This document shows, one piece after another, positions 24,715 through 32,266 of a stretch of 64,000 nucleotides of DNA (position 1 is its first letter; each line of letters begins with the position of its first letter). Made by a program: the position numbers and the translations under genes. This stretch comes from Saccharothrix syringae (GTDB taxonomy: Bacteria; Actinomycetota; Actinomycetes; Mycobacteriales; Pseudonocardiaceae), in assembly GCF_009498035.1 (NCBI RefSeq), contig NZ_CP034550.1:5332001-5396000 (forward strand), given 5' to 3'. A model generated the notes under the pieces. The model worked only from the letters and a program-made list of their open reading frames with translations, did not search any database and was not told the origin of the DNA.

Positions 24715-25371
24715 ATGCCCAGGGGGTTCTACACCGACGAGAAGGGCCGGGTGCGCCCCGTGCCCGTCCGGCACGGCCGCGCCGGGCCGCTGCTGCTCGC
24801 CGGGCTGCTCGTGCTCGGCGCCGTCGGGTACGGGGGAGCGGTCGGGCTCAGCGCGGGCGGTGCCGGCGGCGCCGGCCTCGGCGTGACCGCGCGCCGGGCC
24901 GAGAGCGAGGACCTCGCGCGCCGCGGTGACGCGGACGGCGCGTGGCAGCGCATGGGGCTGCACGGGCTCCGCCAGACGGGCCCGCAGCCGACCGAGTGCA
25001 CCGCGGGGTCGTTCGGCGAGGTGCACGAGTTCCTGCGGCGCACCGGCTGCGCCTCGATGGACCGCGCCCTGTTCGCGGTGGGCGACGGCACGGGCAACAC
25101 CGCGGTCGTGGCCGTGGCCTGGGTGGAGTTCGCCTCGCGCGGCGACGCCCGCCGGTTCCAGGACCTCGTCGACGCCTCCGGGACGGGCGACGTGGAACCG
25201 CTGGGCACCGAGGCGCTGGACCTGGGCGAGGTCTCGTTCAGCGGCGCGAACCACGGCTCCGAGCGCCACCGCGGCACCGTGACGGTCGCCGAGGCCGAGC
25301 TGGCGTCGGGCCACCTCACCCCGGAGGTGCTGGACGCCCTGGCGGAGGTGGCGGCGCTGCTGCCGCGGTGA
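24715..25371 (+). CDS. Single-pass membrane protein of unknown function
   Basis: The 218-residue protein has a short cytoplasmic N-terminus (PRGFYTDEKGRVRPVPVRHGR). One membrane helix follows (about 25-50, LLLAGLLVLGAVGYGGAVGL), then an extracytoplasmic domain of about 150 residues with two cysteines. The N-terminal FYTDxKGRxRPV pattern recurs in small actinobacterial membrane proteins, but I know no function. GGGAGG precedes the ATG. Its 3' end overlaps the convergent S-component gene by about 55 bases, so antisense interference is possible. Confidence 0.7.
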   Translation: MPRGFYTDEKGRVRPVPVRHGRAGPLLLAGLLVLGAVGYGGAVGLSAGGAGGAGLGVTARRAESEDLARRGDADGAWQRMGLHGLRQTGPQPTECTAGSFGEVHEFLRRTGCASMDRALFAVGDGTGNTAVVAVAWVEFASRGDARRFQDLVDASGTGDVEPLGTEALDLGEVSFSGANHGSERHRGTVTVAEAELASGHLTPEVLDALAEVAALLPR

Positions 25372-26998
25372 ACCGGGGCTGTTCGAAGCGCGCGCGGCGG
25401 GCGGCGCGGCGCAGGGTGCGCAGCAGCACCGGGCCGGTGGCCAGCACCAGCACCGCGGTGGTGATCGCCCGGCCGACGTCCCAGCCCAGCGAGGTGGCCA
25501 GGCTGAAACCCACCAGCCGGACCAGGTTGTCGGCGAGCGGGCCGCCGGGTTCGTAGGACAGCGACGTGCTCGCCGCGCCCAGCGCGAACGGCCAGAACGA
25601 CAGGTTCAGCAGCAGGCCGTAGACCAGCGAGGCCACCGTGCTGTAGGCGGCCAGCAGCACCGGTTCCCAGCGCCCGCGCAGCGGCGGCAGCAGCCCGGCG
25701 CCGAACGCCACCCAGGCGGCGCCCAGCATCTGGTAGGGGAGCCAGGGGCCGACGCCGCCGGTGAGCAGCGCCGAGGCGAACATCATCGTGTTGCCCAGCA
25801 CGAAGCCGAAGCCGGGGCCGAACACCCGGCCGCCCAGGACGAGCAGGAAGAACACGACTTCGATGCCCGCCGCGCCCGCGCCCAGCGGCCGCAGGGCCGC
25901 GCCGAGGGCGGACAGCACGCCCAGCACCGCCACCGCCTTGGCGTCCAGGCCGCCCTCGCCGAGTTCGGCGAGGGTCACGGCCAGGACCAGGGGGAGGAGC
26001 AGGATGAACAGCCAGGGTGCGCCGGTGCCGCGGGCCAGGGCGGCGTCGGCGGAGATCAGCAGCGGCCAGCCGAACGCGGCCGCGCTGATGACGGCGGCGA
26101 TGCCGAGGGCGATCGCCGCGCGGGGGCGGATGCGGATGGGGGAGTGGGTTGCCCGGCCGGTCCTTCCGGCAGCCCTCGGTTCGGTCTCCGACCCAACCCC
26201 TGCCTCAACCGCCGACCCCGCCGACCCCGCCGACCCTGCCGCCCCTGCCCCCGCCAACCCTGCCGCCACCGAGCCCGCCGCCGCCCCTGCCGCCGCCGCC
26301 GAGCCCGTCGACCCCGCCGTCGACCCCTCCGACCCTGCCGAGCCCGCCGCCGAGCCGGCCTCCGCCCCAGCTACCGACCTGGTTCCCGACCCTGCCGAGC
26401 CCGCCGCCGAGCCGGCCTCCGCCCCAGCTACCGACCTGGTTCCCGACCCTGCCGAGCCCGCCGCCGAGCCGGCCTCCGCCCCAGCTACCGACCTGGTTCC
26501 CGACCCTGCCGAGCCCGCCGCCGAGCCGGCCTCCGCCCCAGCTACCGACCTGGTTCCCGACCCTGCCGAGCCCGCCGCCGACCCGGCCTCCGCCCCAGCT
26601 ACCGACCTGGTTCCCGACCCTGCCGAGCCCGCCGCCGAGCCGGCCTCCGCCCCAGCTACCGACCTGGTTCCCGACCCTGCCGAGCCCGCCGCCGAGCCGG
26701 CCTCCGCCCCAGCTACCGACCTGGTTCCCGACCCTGCCGAGCCCGCCGCCGAGCCGGCCTCCGCCCCAGCTACCGACCTGGTTCCCGACCCTGCCGAGCC
26801 CGCCGCCGAGCCGGCCTCCGCCCCAGCTACCGACCTGGTTCCCGACCCTGCCGAGCCCGCCGCCGAGCCGGCCTCCGCCCCAGCTACCGACCTGGTTCCC
26901 GACCCTGCCGAGCCCGCCGCCGAGCCGGCCCCCAGCCCGGTTCCGCAGCCGCCCTCAGGCCCGGTTCCCCCGCCGCCCACCGAACCAGCCCCGCTCAC
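25316..26998 (-). CDS. ECF transporter S component for cobalamin, with a long repeat-rich N-terminal extension
   Basis: Residues about 290-560 form a membrane protein with six or so helices (GIAAVISAAAFGWPL, FGFVLGNTMMFASALLTGGVGPWLPYQMLGAAWVAFGAG pattern), typical of ECF substrate-binding S components. The first 290 residues are low complexity: ten near-identical copies of the 19-residue unit GSAAGSAGSGTRSVAGAEA, then Ala/Gly/Ser-rich sequence. The GTG at 26998 overlaps the ATPase stop (GTGA), and I see no better internal start, so the extension appears to be translated. It is the last gene of the riboswitch-controlled operon, which makes cobalamin the probable substrate. The usual S component is 180-260 residues. 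Confidence 0.8.
   Translation of the reverse strand: MSGAGSVGGGGTGPEGGCGTGLGAGSAAGSAGSGTRSVAGAEAGSAAGSAGSGTRSVAGAEAGSAAGSAGSGTRSVAGAEAGSAAGSAGSGTRSVAGAEAGSAAGSAGSGTRSVAGAEAGSAAGSAGSGTRSVAGAEAGSAAGSAGSGTRSVAGAEAGSAAGSAGSGTRSVAGAEAGSAAGSAGSGTRSVAGAEAGSAAGSAGSGTRSVAGAEAGSAAGSAGSEGSTAGSTGSAAAAGAAAGSVAAGLAGAGAAGSAGSAGSAVEAGVGSETEPRAAGRTGRATHSPIRIRPRAAIALGIAAVISAAAFGWPLLISADAALARGTGAPWLFILLLPLVLAVTLAELGEGGLDAKAVAVLGVLSALGAALRPLGAGAAGIEVVFFLLVLGGRVFGPGFGFVLGNTMMFASALLTGGVGPWLPYQMLGAAWVAFGAGLLPPLRGRWEPVLLAAYSTVASLVYGLLLNLSFWPFALGAASTSLSYEPGGPLADNLVRLVGFSLATSLGWDVGRAITTAVLVLATGPVLLRTLRRAARRARFEQPRFTAAAAPPPPPGRPAPPG
26337..26930. repeat. Ten 57-bp tandem repeats inside the S-component gene
   Basis: Ten head-to-tail copies of a 57-bp unit run from 26337 to 26906, and a partial eleventh continues to about 26930. 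The unit begins GCCGAGCCCGCCGCCGAGCC and ends GGTTCCCGACCCT on the plus strand. Copies are almost identical; the fifth has one base change (GAC for GAG). The period is 19 codons, so copy-number change keeps the frame. All copies are open in several frames, which explains spurious ORFs here. Confidence 0.97.
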
Positions 26999-28596
26999 CG
27001 GGCCGCCAACGCGTCGCGCACGTCCGCCACCGTCAACCAGGCCCGCGGCGCCAACACCTTCGCCACCTGGGGCGAGAACACCGGCGAAGCCGTCACCACC
27101 TCGGCGGTCGGCCCGTCGGCCACCACCTCGCCACCGGCCATCACCACCACCCGGCTCGCGTACTCGGCGACGAACTCCACGTCGTGCGTCGCCAGCACCA
27201 CCGCGTGCCCCCGCTCCGCCAACCCCCGCAGCGCCGCCGCCAACCGCGTCTTGGCCGGGTAGTCCAGCCCGCGCGTCGGCTCGTCCAGCAGCAGCACCCG
27301 CGGCGACGGGGTCAGCGCCACCGCCAGCACCAGCGCCAGCCGCTGCCCCTCCGACAGGTCGCGCGGGTGCCGCGAGTCCGGCACCCCCGGCGCGAGCCGG
27401 TCCAGCAGCTCCCGGCACGTGCCCGCGGCCCGCCCCGACTCCCGGTCGGCCTGCGCGCACTCCCCGGCGACCGTGTGCAGGTACAGCAGGTCGGCCGGCT
27501 GCTGCGGCACCAACCCGACCACGCCCCGCCGCGGCCCCGGCTTGAGCCCCGCCGGGTCGACGCCGGCCACCTCCACCGAACCGCCCGACCGCCGCCCCGT
27601 GCCCTGGAGCGCCCACAGCAGGCTGGACTTGCCCGACCCGTTGCGCCCCATCACCGCCACCCGCTCACCGGCGCCGACGGCCAGCGACACCCCGCGCACC
27701 GCGTCCACAGTGGAGTAACGCACCCGCAGCCCGTCCGCGCGCAGCAGCACCTCGCCCGGTGACCCCGGCACCTCCGGCGGCCCGGCGAGGCGTTCGCGCA
27801 GCGGCCCGGCCAGCCGCCGGGCGTCCCGGATGGACACCGGCACCGGGTCCCACCCGGCCAACTGCCCCAGCCGCACCACCGGCGGCGCGACGGGCGCCTG
27901 CGCCAGCACCGGCCCGGGCGCACCGCCCACCGGCGGCCGGCCACCGCCGGGCAGCCACACCACGCGGTCGGCGTACTGCGCCACCCGCTCCAGCCGGTGC
28001 TCGGCGATCAGCACCGTCATCCCCAGGTCGTGCACCAGCCGGTGCAGCGCGGCCAGCACGTCCTCGGCCGCGCCGGGGTCCAGCGCCGACGTCGGCTCGT
28101 CCAGCACGAGCACGCGCGGGTGCGCGGTCAGCGCCGCGCCCACCGCCACGCGCTGCTGCTGACCGCCGGACAGCGTCGCCAGCGGCCGGTGCCGCAGGTC
28201 GGCCAGGCCGAGCAGGTCCAACGTCTCCTCCACCCGCTTGCGCATCACCGGCTCGGGCAGCGCCAGCGACTCCATCGAGTACGCCAGCTCCTCCTCGACC
28301 GAGTCGGTGACGAACCCGGCCTGCGGGTCCTGCGCCACCAGCCCGACCACGTCGGCCAGCTCGCGCGGCGGGTGCGTGCGCGTGTCCCGGCCGTCGACCA
28401 GCACCCGGCCGGCGAGCGTGCCACCGGTGAAGTGCGGCACCAGGCCGTTGACCGCGCGCAGCAGCGTCGACTTGCCGGACCCGGTGCGCCCGACCACCAG
28501 GCACAGCTCGCCCTCGGGGACCTCCAGGTCCACCCCGGACAGCACGGGCGCCTCAGCGTCGCGGTAGGTGACGGAGACGTTCTCGAACCGGATCAT
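26995..28596 (-). CDS. ECF transporter energising subunit, fused double ATPase (EcfA-EcfA')
   Basis: The 533-residue protein contains two complete ABC ATPase domains. The first (about 1-235) has Walker A GRTGSGKST, signature LSGGQQQR and Walker B VLVLDEPTSALD. The second (about 285-533) has GRNGSGKSS, a variant signature LSEGQRLAL and VLLLDEPTRGLD. Two fused ATPases are common for actinobacterial ECF transporters. They drive uptake through the CbiQ-like T component encoded immediately upstream. Its ATG overlaps the CbiQ stop (ATGA), and its own stop overlaps the S-component GTG. Confidence 0.92.
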   Translation of the reverse strand: MIRFENVSVTYRDAEAPVLSGVDLEVPEGELCLVVGRTGSGKSTLLRAVNGLVPHFTGGTLAGRVLVDGRDTRTHPPRELADVVGLVAQDPQAGFVTDSVEEELAYSMESLALPEPVMRKRVEETLDLLGLADLRHRPLATLSGGQQQRVAVGAALTAHPRVLVLDEPTSALDPGAAEDVLAALHRLVHDLGMTVLIAEHRLERVAQYADRVVWLPGGGRPPVGGAPGPVLAQAPVAPPVVRLGQLAGWDPVPVSIRDARRLAGPLRERLAGPPEVPGSPGEVLLRADGLRVRYSTVDAVRGVSLAVGAGERVAVMGRNGSGKSSLLWALQGTGRRSGGSVEVAGVDPAGLKPGPRRGVVGLVPQQPADLLYLHTVAGECAQADRESGRAAGTCRELLDRLAPGVPDSRHPRDLSEGQRLALVLAVALTPSPRVLLLDEPTRGLDYPAKTRLAAALRGLAERGHAVVLATHDVEFVAEYASRVVVMAGGEVVADGPTAEVVTASPVFSPQVAKVLAPRAWLTVADVRDALAAR

Positions 28597-29648
28597 GCCC
28601 TCTTCCGATCGACGAGCACGGGCGCCAGCGCGCACAGCAGACCGAGCGCGGGCAGCAGGGGCAGGCCGGGCACCACCAGCGGCGAGGTGCCGGGCGTCAG
28701 CGCGTCGCCGCCCAGGTCGGCGGGCGCCAGGAACGTCGCCAGCGCCGCCACCAGCCCCGCCCCGACGATCAGCAGCTCGCGCGGACCCCAGGTGTCCGGC
28801 CGGTACCGGCTGCGCCGCACCCGCCGTGACCCGGTCCACAGCCCCGCGACGGCCAGGGCCGCGCCGACCGCCAGCACCGGCGCGCCCACCAGCGGCGGCG
28901 CGCTGCCGTCGAGCAGCCCGTACGCGCCCAGGCACAGCCCGCCCAGCCCGCCCAGCACCAGCACCCCGGTCAGCGCCCGCGCCGACCGGGGCAGCCCGGC
29001 GGTGCGCCCGTACCCGCGCGAGTCCATCGCCGCCGCCAGCACCAGCGACCGCTCGAACGCGTCCTCCAGCACGGGCACCGCCAGCACCCGCAACGCCCTG
29101 ATCCCGCGCACCGCGTCCCCGCGCAGCGCCCGCGCCCGCCGCACCGAACGCGCGCTGGTCACCAGCTGCGGTGCCACGGTCAGCGCCACCACCACCGCCA
29201 CGCTCACCTCGTACAGCGCCGCCGGCAGCGACCGCAGCAGCCGCTTGGCGTTGGCCAGCGCGTTCGCCGCGCCCACGCAGCACAGCAGGGTCGCGAGTTG
29301 GAGCCCGTGGTAGAGCGCGAAGACCAGGCCCTCGGCGCTGACCGGGCCGCCCAGCCGGATGCCGCGCGCCCACCCCGGCAGCGGCACGGACGGCAGCGTG
29401 AACAGCACCGTGGGCCCGGCGACGCCGCCGAGCAGCACGTGGAACACCACCCGGACCGCGATCACCGCCAGCCCGAACTTCAGGAACACCCCGTAGGCAC
29501 CCGCCCACGGCGTGTCCGGCCGGCACGACACGGCCACGTACCCGGCGACCGCGACCACGAGTGCGAGCAGCACCGGATTGGTGGTCCGCGTGGCGACGGC
29601 GGCCAGGCACAGCGCCCACAGCCACCACGCGCCGGGGTGCGGTGTCAC
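28593..29648 (-). CDS. ECF transporter transmembrane T component (CbiQ-like)
   Basis: The 351-residue integral membrane protein starts at a GTG overlapping the previous stop (GTGA). It begins TPHPGAWWLWALCLAA and has multiple helices. It also carries the coupling-helix motifs expected of T components: AMDSRGYGRT is the Ala-Arg-Gly-like motif, and RRARALRGDAVRGIR precedes it. Extra C-terminal helices make it longer than the usual 220-270 residues. It transmits ATPase motion to the S component. Confidence 0.9.
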   Translation of the reverse strand: MTPHPGAWWLWALCLAAVATRTTNPVLLALVVAVAGYVAVSCRPDTPWAGAYGVFLKFGLAVIAVRVVFHVLLGGVAGPTVLFTLPSVPLPGWARGIRLGGPVSAEGLVFALYHGLQLATLLCCVGAANALANAKRLLRSLPAALYEVSVAVVVALTVAPQLVTSARSVRRARALRGDAVRGIRALRVLAVPVLEDAFERSLVLAAAMDSRGYGRTAGLPRSARALTGVLVLGGLGGLCLGAYGLLDGSAPPLVGAPVLAVGAALAVAGLWTGSRRVRRSRYRPDTWGPRELLIVGAGLVAALATFLAPADLGGDALTPGTSPLVVPGLPLLPALGLLCALAPVLVDRKRA

Positions 29649-30547
29649 TCCGGCGCCCTGGCGCGCCGGCGCGCGGTCCACCAGCCCAGGCCACCGAGCA
29701 CGAGCACCGCCGCGACACCCGCGAGCAGGCCGAACGTGCCACCGGACGACGTGCTCGCCGCCGGTTCGACCGCGACGGGCGTGCCGCCGGTCGCGGACGG
29801 TGCCGGGGTGGGGGAGGACGGTGCGCTGCTGCTCGCCGGCGCGCCCGCGGAGGCCGTGGGCGGTGCCGAGGTCGTGGCGCCCCCGGTCCCCGAGGTCGTC
29901 GGCTGCGCGGTCGGCACCGGCTGCCCCGGGGTCGGTTGCGGCGCGGGCGGCTGGGGTTGTGGCTGGGGCTGGGGTGGTGGCTGCGGTTGTGGTTGGGGGA
30001 CCGGTTGTGGTTGGGGTTGCGGCTGGGGAGCGGGTGCCGGCGGTGCCGCGCTCGGCGGCGTCCCGGCGCCGAACGACCAGCCCTCGACGCTGCCCGGAGC
30101 CGGGTCGTGCACCCCGGCGCCCGCGCTGCTGTAGGTCCAGCCGCTGCCGGGCGTGCCGTGCCAGTAGGACCAGTAGGCCGTGGTGGGCGCGCCGTTGCAC
30201 GGGTCCGGCAGGCCGTCGACCCGGCAGACCATGCCTGCTTGGCGCGGCAGGAACTCGTAGCGGAACCCGGCGGCGGACAGCGCCGCCAGGCCGCTGGCCG
30301 GGTCACCGGGCGCGCAGCCGGTCCGCACCCCGCCCAACGACCCGAAGTCCACCACGACGCTCACCCCGGCGCAGGACGCGGCCCAGGCGGCGGGGGAGAG
30401 CAGCGCCGGAACGGTGACCGCGATCAGCACCGCCGACGAGGCGGCGAGGCCGCGGGAGGTCGCTCGCGGACGCCGGTGTGCCGTTGCCGCGCGGGCGGCA
30501 GCCGTGACCGGTATCGCCGACGAGGCCGCGAGACCGCGTGAAGTCAC
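29645..30547 (-). CDS. Membrane-anchored DUF4430 protein (transcobalamin C-domain-like)
   Basis: The 300-residue product starts at a GTG overlapping the preceding stop. After a long N-region and signal sequence (cleavage near AAWAAS) comes a roughly 100-residue DUF4430 domain. It contains VVVDFGSLGGVRTGC, FLPRQAGMVCRVDGLPDPCNG and TTAYWSYWHGTPGSGWTYSS. This domain is related to the C-terminal beta domain of intrinsic factor and transcobalamin. A Pro-Gln-rich spacer and a C-terminal membrane helix with a RRRAR tail follow, so the domain should stand out from the membrane. The signal region contains an internal repeat of TSRGLAASSA. A role in binding corrinoid is inferred from domain and context. 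Confidence 0.85.
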   Translation of the reverse strand: MTSRGLAASSAIPVTAAARAATAHRRPRATSRGLAASSAVLIAVTVPALLSPAAWAASCAGVSVVVDFGSLGGVRTGCAPGDPASGLAALSAAGFRYEFLPRQAGMVCRVDGLPDPCNGAPTTAYWSYWHGTPGSGWTYSSAGAGVHDPAPGSVEGWSFGAGTPPSAAPPAPAPQPQPQPQPVPQPQPQPPPQPQPQPQPPAPQPTPGQPVPTAQPTTSGTGGATTSAPPTASAGAPASSSAPSSPTPAPSATGGTPVAVEPAASTSSGGTFGLLAGVAAVLVLGGLGWWTARRRARAPE

Positions 30548-31953
30548 TTCCCGACCCCGGCGTGCCGCTGCCGCGCCACCACCAGCAGCAGCGCACCCGC
30601 GGCCAGCAGCAGCGAACCCAGCCACGTGGCCGGCCCGACCGGTACGCCCGTGCGGGCCAGCTCCCGCCCGCCACCGGCCGCCGCCACCGCGGTCGTCGTG
30701 GTCGTGGTGTCCGAAGTGGAGGCCGCCGGGGTCGTGGAGGTCGGTGCCACCGGGCAGTCGAGCACCGGCACGCCGGTCACCGCGCCCTCGGCCGACAGCT
30801 CGGCGTAGCCCACGCCCACCAGCCCCAGCACGGCCTGCGCGCTCGCGGCCTGCGCGGTCGCGGCGGTGAAACCGGTCCGGTCGTAGGCGATCGCACCGCG
30901 GTCCGCCCCGGCCGCCGAGCAGCCCTGGGCCAGCCCGGCGAGGAACGCCGCCGCCCGGTCCGCCTCGGCGGTCCGACCACCCGCGCGCAGCGCCTGCGCC
31001 GCGAGGCCGGTGCTGTTGGCGTTGCCCTCGTCGTCCTTGCCGTCCTCGCGGAACCCGCCGCCCGGCTGCTGCTGCCCGGCCAGCCAGGTCAGCGCCTCGG
31101 CCAGCGCCGCGTCGTCCGCGGGGGTCCGGTCCACCGCCAGCAGCGCCTGCACGGCCATCGCGGTGGTGTCCACGTCGGGCACGCAGGGCTCGGCCAGCAG
31201 TTGCACCGGGAAGCCGGTGCCCGGGCACCGCGTGCCCAGCATGAAGTCGACCGCGTTGCGCGGCGCGCTCTGCCGGCGCTCCAGCGCCAGCACCGCGAAC
31301 GCCTGGGTGAAGCCGTTGGAGAAGTCCTGCGGGACGTCGGAGAACCGCCCGGAGGGCGCCTGCAGCGCGGTCAGGCCCGCGATCAGGTCGACCCCGCCGA
31401 AGTCGGTCGGGTCCAGGCCGCGCACCTGCACGGCCAGCGCGAGCTTGGCGTACGAGCCCGCGTAGGAGGTGTTCGGGTCGCCGAAGTGCAGGTAGGTCGC
31501 GACGGTCTCGGGCCGGGCGAACCAGGCGGTGATCGCGTCCGCGCGGTCCTCGGCGACGCCGGCGGCGGCGAGGGCGAACAGCGCGTCCAGGGTCAGGCCG
31601 TGGTCGACGAACCGGGTGCCGCCGTACTCGGTCTCCAGGTGGTCGCCGTCGACGAGCCGCCGGGCCAGCCACCCCGCCGCGGCGGCGGCCACGCCCGCCT
31701 GGGCCGCGCTGGCCGAACTCGCGTTGGCCGAAGCCGCGTCTGCTGGAGCCGCGCCGACGGGAGCCGCGTCCGCCGGAGTCGCGCCGACGAGAGTCGCGTC
31801 CGCCGGAGCCGCGCCGACCAGAGCCGCGTCCGTCGACGACGTGCCCGCCGAAGGCGCGTCGGCCGGCGGCTGCGCGTGGGCGTGCGGCGCGACCAGCAGC
31901 GCGGCGACGGCGGCGACCGCGGCGGCGGTCCGTCTGATCGGCCTGATCGGCAT
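30544..31953 (-). CDS. Wall-anchored alpha/alpha-toroid protein (intrinsic factor N-domain-like)
   Basis: The 469-residue protein has a signal peptide (cleavage near APHAHAQP) and an Ala-rich spacer with near-repeats of ADAAPVGAAP. A prenyltransferase/terpenoid-cyclase-type alpha/alpha barrel follows (about 85-400, repeats such as SYAKLALAVQVRG, FTQAFAVLALER, TTAMAVQALLAV, NSTGLAAQALRAG). The C-terminus ends with LARTG, a hydrophobic helix and a basic tail, the LAxTG signal of class E sortases. The alpha6/alpha6 barrel is also the fold of the N-terminal domain of intrinsic factor and transcobalamin. Together with the adjacent DUF4430 protein it looks like a two-protein corrinoid trap. It is the first gene after the riboswitch, with AAAGG before the ATG. 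Confidence 0.87.
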   Translation of the reverse strand: MPIRPIRRTAAAVAAVAALLVAPHAHAQPPADAPSAGTSSTDAALVGAAPADATLVGATPADAAPVGAAPADAASANASSASAAQAGVAAAAAGWLARRLVDGDHLETEYGGTRFVDHGLTLDALFALAAAGVAEDRADAITAWFARPETVATYLHFGDPNTSYAGSYAKLALAVQVRGLDPTDFGGVDLIAGLTALQAPSGRFSDVPQDFSNGFTQAFAVLALERRQSAPRNAVDFMLGTRCPGTGFPVQLLAEPCVPDVDTTAMAVQALLAVDRTPADDAALAEALTWLAGQQQPGGGFREDGKDDEGNANSTGLAAQALRAGGRTAEADRAAAFLAGLAQGCSAAGADRGAIAYDRTGFTAATAQAASAQAVLGLVGVGYAELSAEGAVTGVPVLDCPVAPTSTTPAASTSDTTTTTTAVAAAGGGRELARTGVPVGPATWLGSLLLAAGALLLVVARQRHAGVGK

Positions 31954-32047
31954 GTTCGACCTTTCCGGGCGCGAGGCGCGCGAGCGGACCCCGGACGGCC
32001 TTCACCCGGGCTCCGACCCGCTGACCTCGACGGTGTCTGGAGCGTGC

Positions 32048-32140
32048 CGCGCGTGGCGGGTGTTCGGGCTCGTCCCGGGCCGGGACCTACCGTTGCGGGC
32101 CAGCGCCGGACTTCGACCGGCTTCCCCCTGTTCACGCGCG
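32048..32140 (-). ncRNA. Compact cobalamin riboswitch
   Basis: On the minus strand the core contains GGGAAGCCGGTCGAAGTCCG, GCGCTGGCCCGCAACGGTAG and GAGCCCGAACACCCGCC, the conserved cobalamin-aptamer elements in the right order. The ends pair as P1: CGCGCGTG (32133-32140) with CACGCGCG (32048-32055). The aptamer is about 93 bases, shorter than the roughly 200-base AdoCbl type, so it resembles the compact Cbl-II architecture. It lies in the leader of the five-gene operon starting at 31953 and should repress expression when cobalamin is plentiful. Confidence 0.92.
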
Positions 32141-32147
32141 ATTGCCG

Positions 32148-32176
32148 ATCGTCTGCCACCGACCACGGTGTGTCAA
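32148..32176 (-). promoter_or_regulatory. Promoter of the cobalamin-uptake operon
   Basis: On the minus strand TTGACA (32171-32176), 17 bases, then GACGAT (32148-32153). The start would fall near 32141, exactly at the 5' edge of the riboswitch aptamer, giving a leader of about 190 bases. Confidence 0.7.
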
Positions 32177-32266
32177 TCCGCCTGTGGCGCGATGCTCGCC
32201 ACCCGCGCATGCGGTTACCGTTCGTCGATTCGATCTGGGGACGGACTGGGGAACGAGGGGTGTGGG

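Follow-up and report, generated by a model that had tools for sequence, protein, structure and literature searches.

Our analysis of a 64,000-nucleotide stretch of the Saccharothrix syringae genome (contig NZ_CP034550.1, positions 5,332,001 to 5,396,000; hereafter the window, meaning the whole of that stretch) supports a model in which a five-gene operon behind a cobalamin riboswitch captures and imports corrinoids: a two-chain binder of the intrinsic factor/transcobalamin type would feed a dedicated energy-coupling factor (ECF) transporter. We assign this reading a probability of about 0.8. Its direct basis is gene order, the riboswitch, anchor motifs, predicted folds, conservation across the phylum and natural fusions of the two surface proteins. 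A first-pass annotation of the window had described the same operon as a split system, with a wall-anchored alpha/alpha-toroid protein and a membrane-anchored DUF4430 protein corresponding to the two domains of the animal carriers. That observation is confirmed, and its interpretation is well supported as a prediction. The operon occupies 32178 to 25316 of the minus strand, in a host genome of 10.9 Mb whose nearest named protein relatives come from Saccharothrix and Actinosynnema, and it comprises the following features.

32038..32178, minus strand: cobalamin riboswitch aptamer at the operon head (Rfam RF00174, 36.2 bits; gathering threshold 31.5)
30544..31953, minus strand: predicted secreted toroid protein of 469 amino acids with an LARTG anchor, the proposed alpha half (SCO2321_fam, 86.7 bits against a cut-off of 300)
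29645..30547, minus strand: predicted secreted beta protein, the proposed beta half, whose start may be 30430 (SCO2322_fam, 30.6 bits against a cut-off of 85)
28593..29648, minus strand: EcfT/CbiQ transmembrane coupling protein (Pfam CbiQ, PF02361, 39.5 bits, over the cut-off of 25)
26995..28596, minus strand: fused double ATPase of the ECF module (two ABC_tran stretches in Pfam)
25316..26998, minus strand: predicted S component with a repeat-rich N-terminal extension (PF12822, 21.2 bits; core at about 25370-26158)
26329..26938, minus strand: tandem array of 57 base pairs (bp) in 10.7 copies, in frame, within the N-terminal extension of the S gene

The riboswitch, toroid, beta protein, CbiQ, double ATPase and predicted S component were thus all located where the first-pass annotation had placed them. 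It had also claimed that every junction is a 4-base overlap. The four gene borders do read so (GTGA, GTGA, ATGA and GTGA), but two of the starts are uncertain. The toroid/beta overlap may be only apparent, because the database entry for the beta protein has 261 amino acids against the 300 of the called frame. Likewise, the ATPase/S junction is uncertain because about 840 bases separate the ATPase from the conserved S core, compared with 0 to 335 bases in order-level relatives. This gene order is found repeatedly across the phylum, which argues that the operon arrangement is not due to chance.

The placement of the operon behind a cobalamin riboswitch held, with the Rfam match above its gathering threshold. 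An RF00174-type element also precedes orthologous operons, and the genome contains five cobalamin riboswitches in total, the window's included. A model derived from the operons themselves, R1, scores 117.3 bits at the window riboswitch, which is one of its 19 training sequences. The idea would have been undermined had the toroid/beta pair occurred with unrelated riboswitches; in the loci scanned, Cobalamin and AdoCbl were the only families at Rfam gathering thresholds.

The predicted structure of the first protein agrees with the earlier description of a wall-anchored alpha/alpha-toroid. Its AlphaFold model (mean predicted local distance difference test score, pLDDT, 83.4) has that fold, with a signal-like helix predicted at the N-terminus, and the C-terminus carries LARTG at residue 432, a hydrophobic stretch and a basic tail. 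Four cysteines are invariant in the toroid family (38 of 38). Foldseek places transcobalamin chains at ranks 19, 22, 26, 30 and 48 (probability 1.00; best E 3.9e-5). A separate structure comparison listed no cobalamin binder among 50 entries, an absence that is no test, given that Foldseek has transcobalamin lower down. Searching PDB sequences with the toroid alone gave no match at E<=1, PF01122 reaches 16.6 bits (cut-off 25), and SQHop_cyclase_C and Cobalamin_bind both appear among the operon proteins under their Pfam cut-offs. The catalytic motif of class II terpene cyclases is DXDD; in the toroids it is incomplete, its fourth position, the residue after D262, being A in 21, T in 9, S in 7 and G in 1 of the 38 sequences. 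The toroid gene also contains imperfect 15/30/60-bp repeats after the signal-like start (31727-31866), an Ala-rich region mostly gapped in 37 relatives (alignment A1).

In the model of the second protein, a signal-like start is followed by a domain of about 105 residues, in which all 10-residue blocks lie above pLDDT 80, then by a Pro/Gln-rich linker and a C-terminal membrane helix predicted at residues 233-257 of the 261-residue form. Its top PDB fold matches are transcobalamin, intrinsic factor, haptocorrin and, from bacteria, 3u7z; all other matches follow at a clear distance. Thus both proteins match the two domains of the animal carriers in structure, the beta protein at the top of its list and the toroid further down, and in the window they are encoded by separate genes, as the first-pass annotation had it. 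Four cysteines are invariant in the beta family (30 of 30). The label of membrane-anchored DUF4430 protein stands in part: the membrane helix and a DUF4430-like fold are predicted, but Pfam found nothing over the protein, and PF14478 (DUF4430) was unmatched even at E<=1, as it was in 30 aligned family members. Comparison of the beta and DUF4430 profiles with hhalign gave a probability of 0.9% for the narrow alignment and 57% (E 1e-4, single pair) after widening with 39 domain copies. Kinship to DUF4430 is therefore visible in the predicted fold and weakly in profile comparison; true PF14478 proteins also occupy comparable riboswitch/ECF/toroid operons. Pfam and InterPro tie DUF4430 to transcobalamin. 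In fish, DUF4430 is reported from transcobalamin-like proteins (PMC4350170). PDB matches of the beta protein alone (10 rows), of its profile (7 rows) and of the DUF4430 profile (7 rows) were set aside as low-complexity or chance.

To survey conservation of the operon, as the first-pass annotation had suggested, we called clusters with our own script, allowing gene gaps of up to 1300 bases and a riboswitch within 700 bases. SCO2321_fam matched in 43 of 60 related genomes, none over the cut-off, a count into which unrelated toroids and internal repeats also fall; from the stronger matches we took 40 surrounding regions as our first set. SCO2322_fam matched in 44 of 296 phylum genomes, 9 of them over the cut-off, and 40 regions from 39 of these 44 formed the second. 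The nine genomes over the cut-off share the order beta, CbiQ, ATPase, S, with the toroid in front in eight. Altogether we found 61 contiguous clusters of toroid, beta protein and ECF genes (30 and 31 in the two sets), and 53 carried a cobalamin-type riboswitch, counted as R1 at E<=0.001 or an Rfam match. This element heads 28 first-set clusters and lies within one more, and it heads 24 second-set clusters. Two further clusters end at a contig end (L054, L102). R1 was trained on the window plus 18 of these loci, and for those its result is circular; no training sequence came from the second set, and Rfam alone finds a riboswitch in 24 of the 30 first-set clusters, where Cobalamin and AdoCbl are the only families over threshold. 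The arrangement is thus widespread, and sometimes fused.

Partial versions of the cluster also occur. Where toroid and beta protein lack a contiguous ECF module, a riboswitch is present in 6/7 cases; across both sets, lone toroids have one in 5/8 and lone beta proteins in 1/2. Five lone toroid genes, each preceded by a cobalamin-type riboswitch of its own (L021; L022, 8022-8945 on the minus strand; L023; L024; and L033, whose frame runs to the contig end), show no C-terminal anchor motif in the frame seen and are possible freely secreted corrinoid binders. Among relatives the anchors vary, as surveyed in stop-to-stop frames with a hydropathy threshold of our own. Of 89 frames with a toroid, 29 have LPxTG/LAxTG within their last 60 residues and 55 end in a hydrophobic stretch; such a C-terminal stretch is present in 66 of 85 beta and 0 of 20 DUF4430 frames. 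In eight operons over the SCO2322_fam cut-off, presumably from Streptomyces (L091-L098), the beta domain matches the profile over about half its length or less, roughly 50-80 residues. One locus (L039) contains two tandem toroid/beta pairs, each behind its own R1 match, and this 18.6-kb region has more cobalamin riboswitches, on both of its strands.

Natural fusions join the two proteins in a single frame. Three congeneric genomes (L104, L108, L127) have one frame that encodes the toroid, the beta domain and three CWB2 wall-binding stretches, and in an Actinomycetota metagenome-assembled genome (MAG; L176), where CbiQ and a riboswitch match lie close by, both domains share a frame. Both domains also occur in 8 of 312 protein records, toroid first in P0241-P0244, the first of which is a Euzebya MAG protein. 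In P0251, P0252, P0254 and P0255 the beta domain comes before the toroid, opposite to the arrangement in the animal proteins. P0244 (509 amino acids) consists of toroid, beta domain and a C-terminal hydrophobic stretch, and as far as its sequence can indicate would be close to a membrane-anchored single-chain intrinsic factor. Because fusions occur in relatives and a cobalamin-type riboswitch accompanies most clusters, we propose a joint B12 role for toroid and beta protein.

A second architecture contains true DUF4430 proteins, which we found in 51 of 296 phylum genomes and not in G000. We sampled 20 loci, one from each of 20 genomes. Twelve contain a toroid, an ECF ATPase and DUF4430 in one region (L155, L157, L158, L160, L161, L162, L164, L166-L170), although the L169 toroid was detected in one of two scans only and that of L170 is separated from DUF4430 by about 5.4 kb. 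By Rfam, 11 of these 12 have a cobalamin riboswitch; the sequence of L161 ends about 1.5 kb upstream of DUF4430. In four loci with DUF4430 and an ATPase (L152, L153, L163, L165), no toroid was detected within the region; Rfam finds a riboswitch in none of the four and R1 only weak matches in three (E 0.048 to 0.15). Since the loci are related, this difference is a contrast and not a statistic; in these four, DUF4430 perhaps serves other ECF substrates. Among the remaining four loci, L154 has a riboswitch and L151 has none (L156 and L159 lay outside the Rfam scan). In all four loci examined for it (L155, L157, L160, L162), riboswitch and DUF4430 are separated by a large gene that matches PQQ_2 (beta-propeller) and DUF5719.

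The transporter genes described by the first-pass annotation were recovered with one qualification. CbiQ and both ABC_tran domains are clear, and the ATPase scores 235.5 bits against NCBIfam TIGR01166 (cbiO; cut-off 211.8) and about 270 bits against ECF_ATPase models, under their cut-offs. The S component, in contrast, matches Pfam ECF_trnsprt (PF12822) below the cut-off of 30.7, and its core aligns with 27 relatives at 40-81% identity. Between the ATPase and this core, the 57-bp array (99% matches) encodes a 19-residue Gly/Ala/Ser-rich repeat, for which order-level relatives have too little room at the ATPase/S-core gap. The genome encodes a methionine synthase B12 domain.

Sequence comparison with transcobalamin gave a more limited result. 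The broad toroid alignment pairs with it at VDTAAM...KAQTPEGHFGNVYSTPLALQ (single-pair P 9e-4, 22% probability), and the bacterial residues matching that stretch, D262, N311 and T315, do not vary among the 38 sequences. Their transcobalamin counterparts are, we presume, residues that touch cobalamin; our literature search for transcobalamin contact residues found no paper giving them.

Several observations weigh against the proposed role. The bacterial profile scores on transcobalamin are weak and some shuffled sequences score as high: in a control with 1000 shuffles, of which 852 and 815 gave a score, the human protein's score was reached by 25 for the widened beta profile and by 11 for the broad toroid profile, with rat and bovine proteins worse and narrower profiles worse still. 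PDB searches with toroid-alignment profiles gave cyclases, prenyltransferases and complement proteins and no cobalamin binder (among all 58 rows of one search and the 60 of 91 rows listed for another), so that structure, more than sequence, is the main ground for linking the bacterial proteins to the animal ones, and the best structural matches of the toroid in Foldseek are class II terpene cyclases, above transcobalamin. A profile search found no solved relative of the S component, so a corrinoid can be named only as its putative substrate. Six of the 61 clusters have no riboswitch at threshold (L092, L093, L096, L103, L111, L120), five of them with a weaker R1 match near the toroid gene start (E 0.0033 to 0.069) and L120 with none, and L051 pairs toroid and beta protein with neither ECF module nor riboswitch adjacent. 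Five clusters contain beta protein and ECF genes, all five with a riboswitch, and no detected toroid. Finally, the genome has CbiC, a corrin-ring biosynthesis gene, so that uptake would be scavenging, and judging by gene content the organism may make corrinoid as well as scavenge it.

These five toroid-less clusters, together with the lone toroids behind their own riboswitches and the isolated transcobalamin beta domain solved with cyanocobalamin (title of 5np4), could indicate that toroid and beta protein each bind corrinoid alone, in succession, and not as halves of a clamp. The fusions in both orders and the conserved co-occurrence of the two proteins speak against such a scheme, which we consider unlikely. 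A distinctly improbable alternative is a B12-controlled ECF transporter for a related ligand, such as dimethylbenzimidazole, cobalt or an incomplete corrinoid, which the surface proteins would bind in place of cobalamin. Some uptake systems for dimethylbenzimidazole, cobalt or cobyrinate diamide are under cobalamin riboswitches. Uptake systems for all three (cblTS for dimethylbenzimidazole, cbrUVT for cobyrinate diamide) are listed in a review (PMC8123684), and the sub-threshold S component with no solved relative by profile leaves room for them. However, CbiM is not among the Pfam matches of the S gene at E<=1, and a binder of transcobalamin fold suits a whole corrinoid. It is very improbable that the toroid is a secreted terpene-cyclase or glycoside-processing enzyme and the beta protein an adhesin, with B12 control reflecting a downstream pathway: terpene cyclases and epimerases are among the nearest folds, and relatives bear the database labels 'prenyltransferase/squalene oxidase repeat-containing protein' or 'peptidase', but the incomplete DXDD, the wall-anchor motif, the beta-domain fusions and the transporter linkage favour binding.

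We therefore return to capture and import of corrinoid by a two-chain binder. When cobalamin is scarce, the riboswitch, to judge from its family, would permit expression of the operon. The toroid would be secreted and anchored to the wall by sortase, and the beta-domain protein would be secreted and held at the membrane by its C-terminal helix on a long linker. By analogy with the animal proteins, a corrinoid could be gripped between the two, and the complex would then pass it to the S component of the dedicated transporter for ATP-driven import; binding, clamp closure, hand-over and substrate are here what we infer. If this model is correct, Gram-positive bacteria have a surface B12 capture stage ahead of the ECF transporter, and a function can be suggested for the toroids with enzyme-like names and for SCO2322-type proteins across Actinomycetota. 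The operon suggests a two-part B12 grip in bacteria like that of animals, and the origin of the animal carriers would become testable in bacteria. More tentatively, wall and membrane chains, both fusion orders and several anchors might form an interchangeable bacterial clamp kit, with the animal family descending from, or sharing an ancestor with, a fused bacterial form.

The closest named families, NCBIfam SCO2321_fam and SCO2322_fam, have model names that carry no function, and the window pair lies far below their cut-offs. The title of 3u7z (RUMGNA_00854 of Ruminococcus gnavus, 'putative metal binding protein') makes no link to B12 or a toroid. In L. rhamnosus, the accessible portion of a proteomics paper describes LGG_02295, next to rtpR, as a DUF4430 protein whose function is unknown, and it also lists an 'Additional lipoprotein component of putative cobalamin ECF transporter' (PMC9963975); these are likely one protein, and in that portion the label comes without a functional test or mention of a toroid. 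Consistent with the earlier view that the split arrangement had not been characterised, none of the matches listed by our open-licence literature searches described the toroid, or a split or fused toroid/beta pair. Among ECF-type B12 transporters, CbrT of L. delbrueckii transports cobalamin and cobinamide as ECF-CbrT (PMC5997447), and cbrUVT is counted among B12 uptake signatures in the 2021 review (PMC8123684). Like CbrT and the predicted CbrUVT, the window system has an ECF module and an S component tied to B12 control, but its module is a dedicated one with a double ATPase, there are two added surface proteins, and the profile of its S component shows no recognisable kinship to solved ones. 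With animal intrinsic factor, transcobalamin and haptocorrin it shares the alpha/alpha-toroid and the beta domain, in the same order in P0241-P0244. The operon pair would work like that family; it is not filed as a member, because the family is single-chain and the Pfam cut-off is not reached. In contrast to the animal carriers, the bacterial system uses two separate anchored chains of weak sequence similarity to them, and is linked to an ECF importer instead of receptor endocytosis. The system is best described as an ECF importer of the B12 type joined by a surface binder akin to intrinsic factor/transcobalamin, the binder being split in the window and fused in some relatives.
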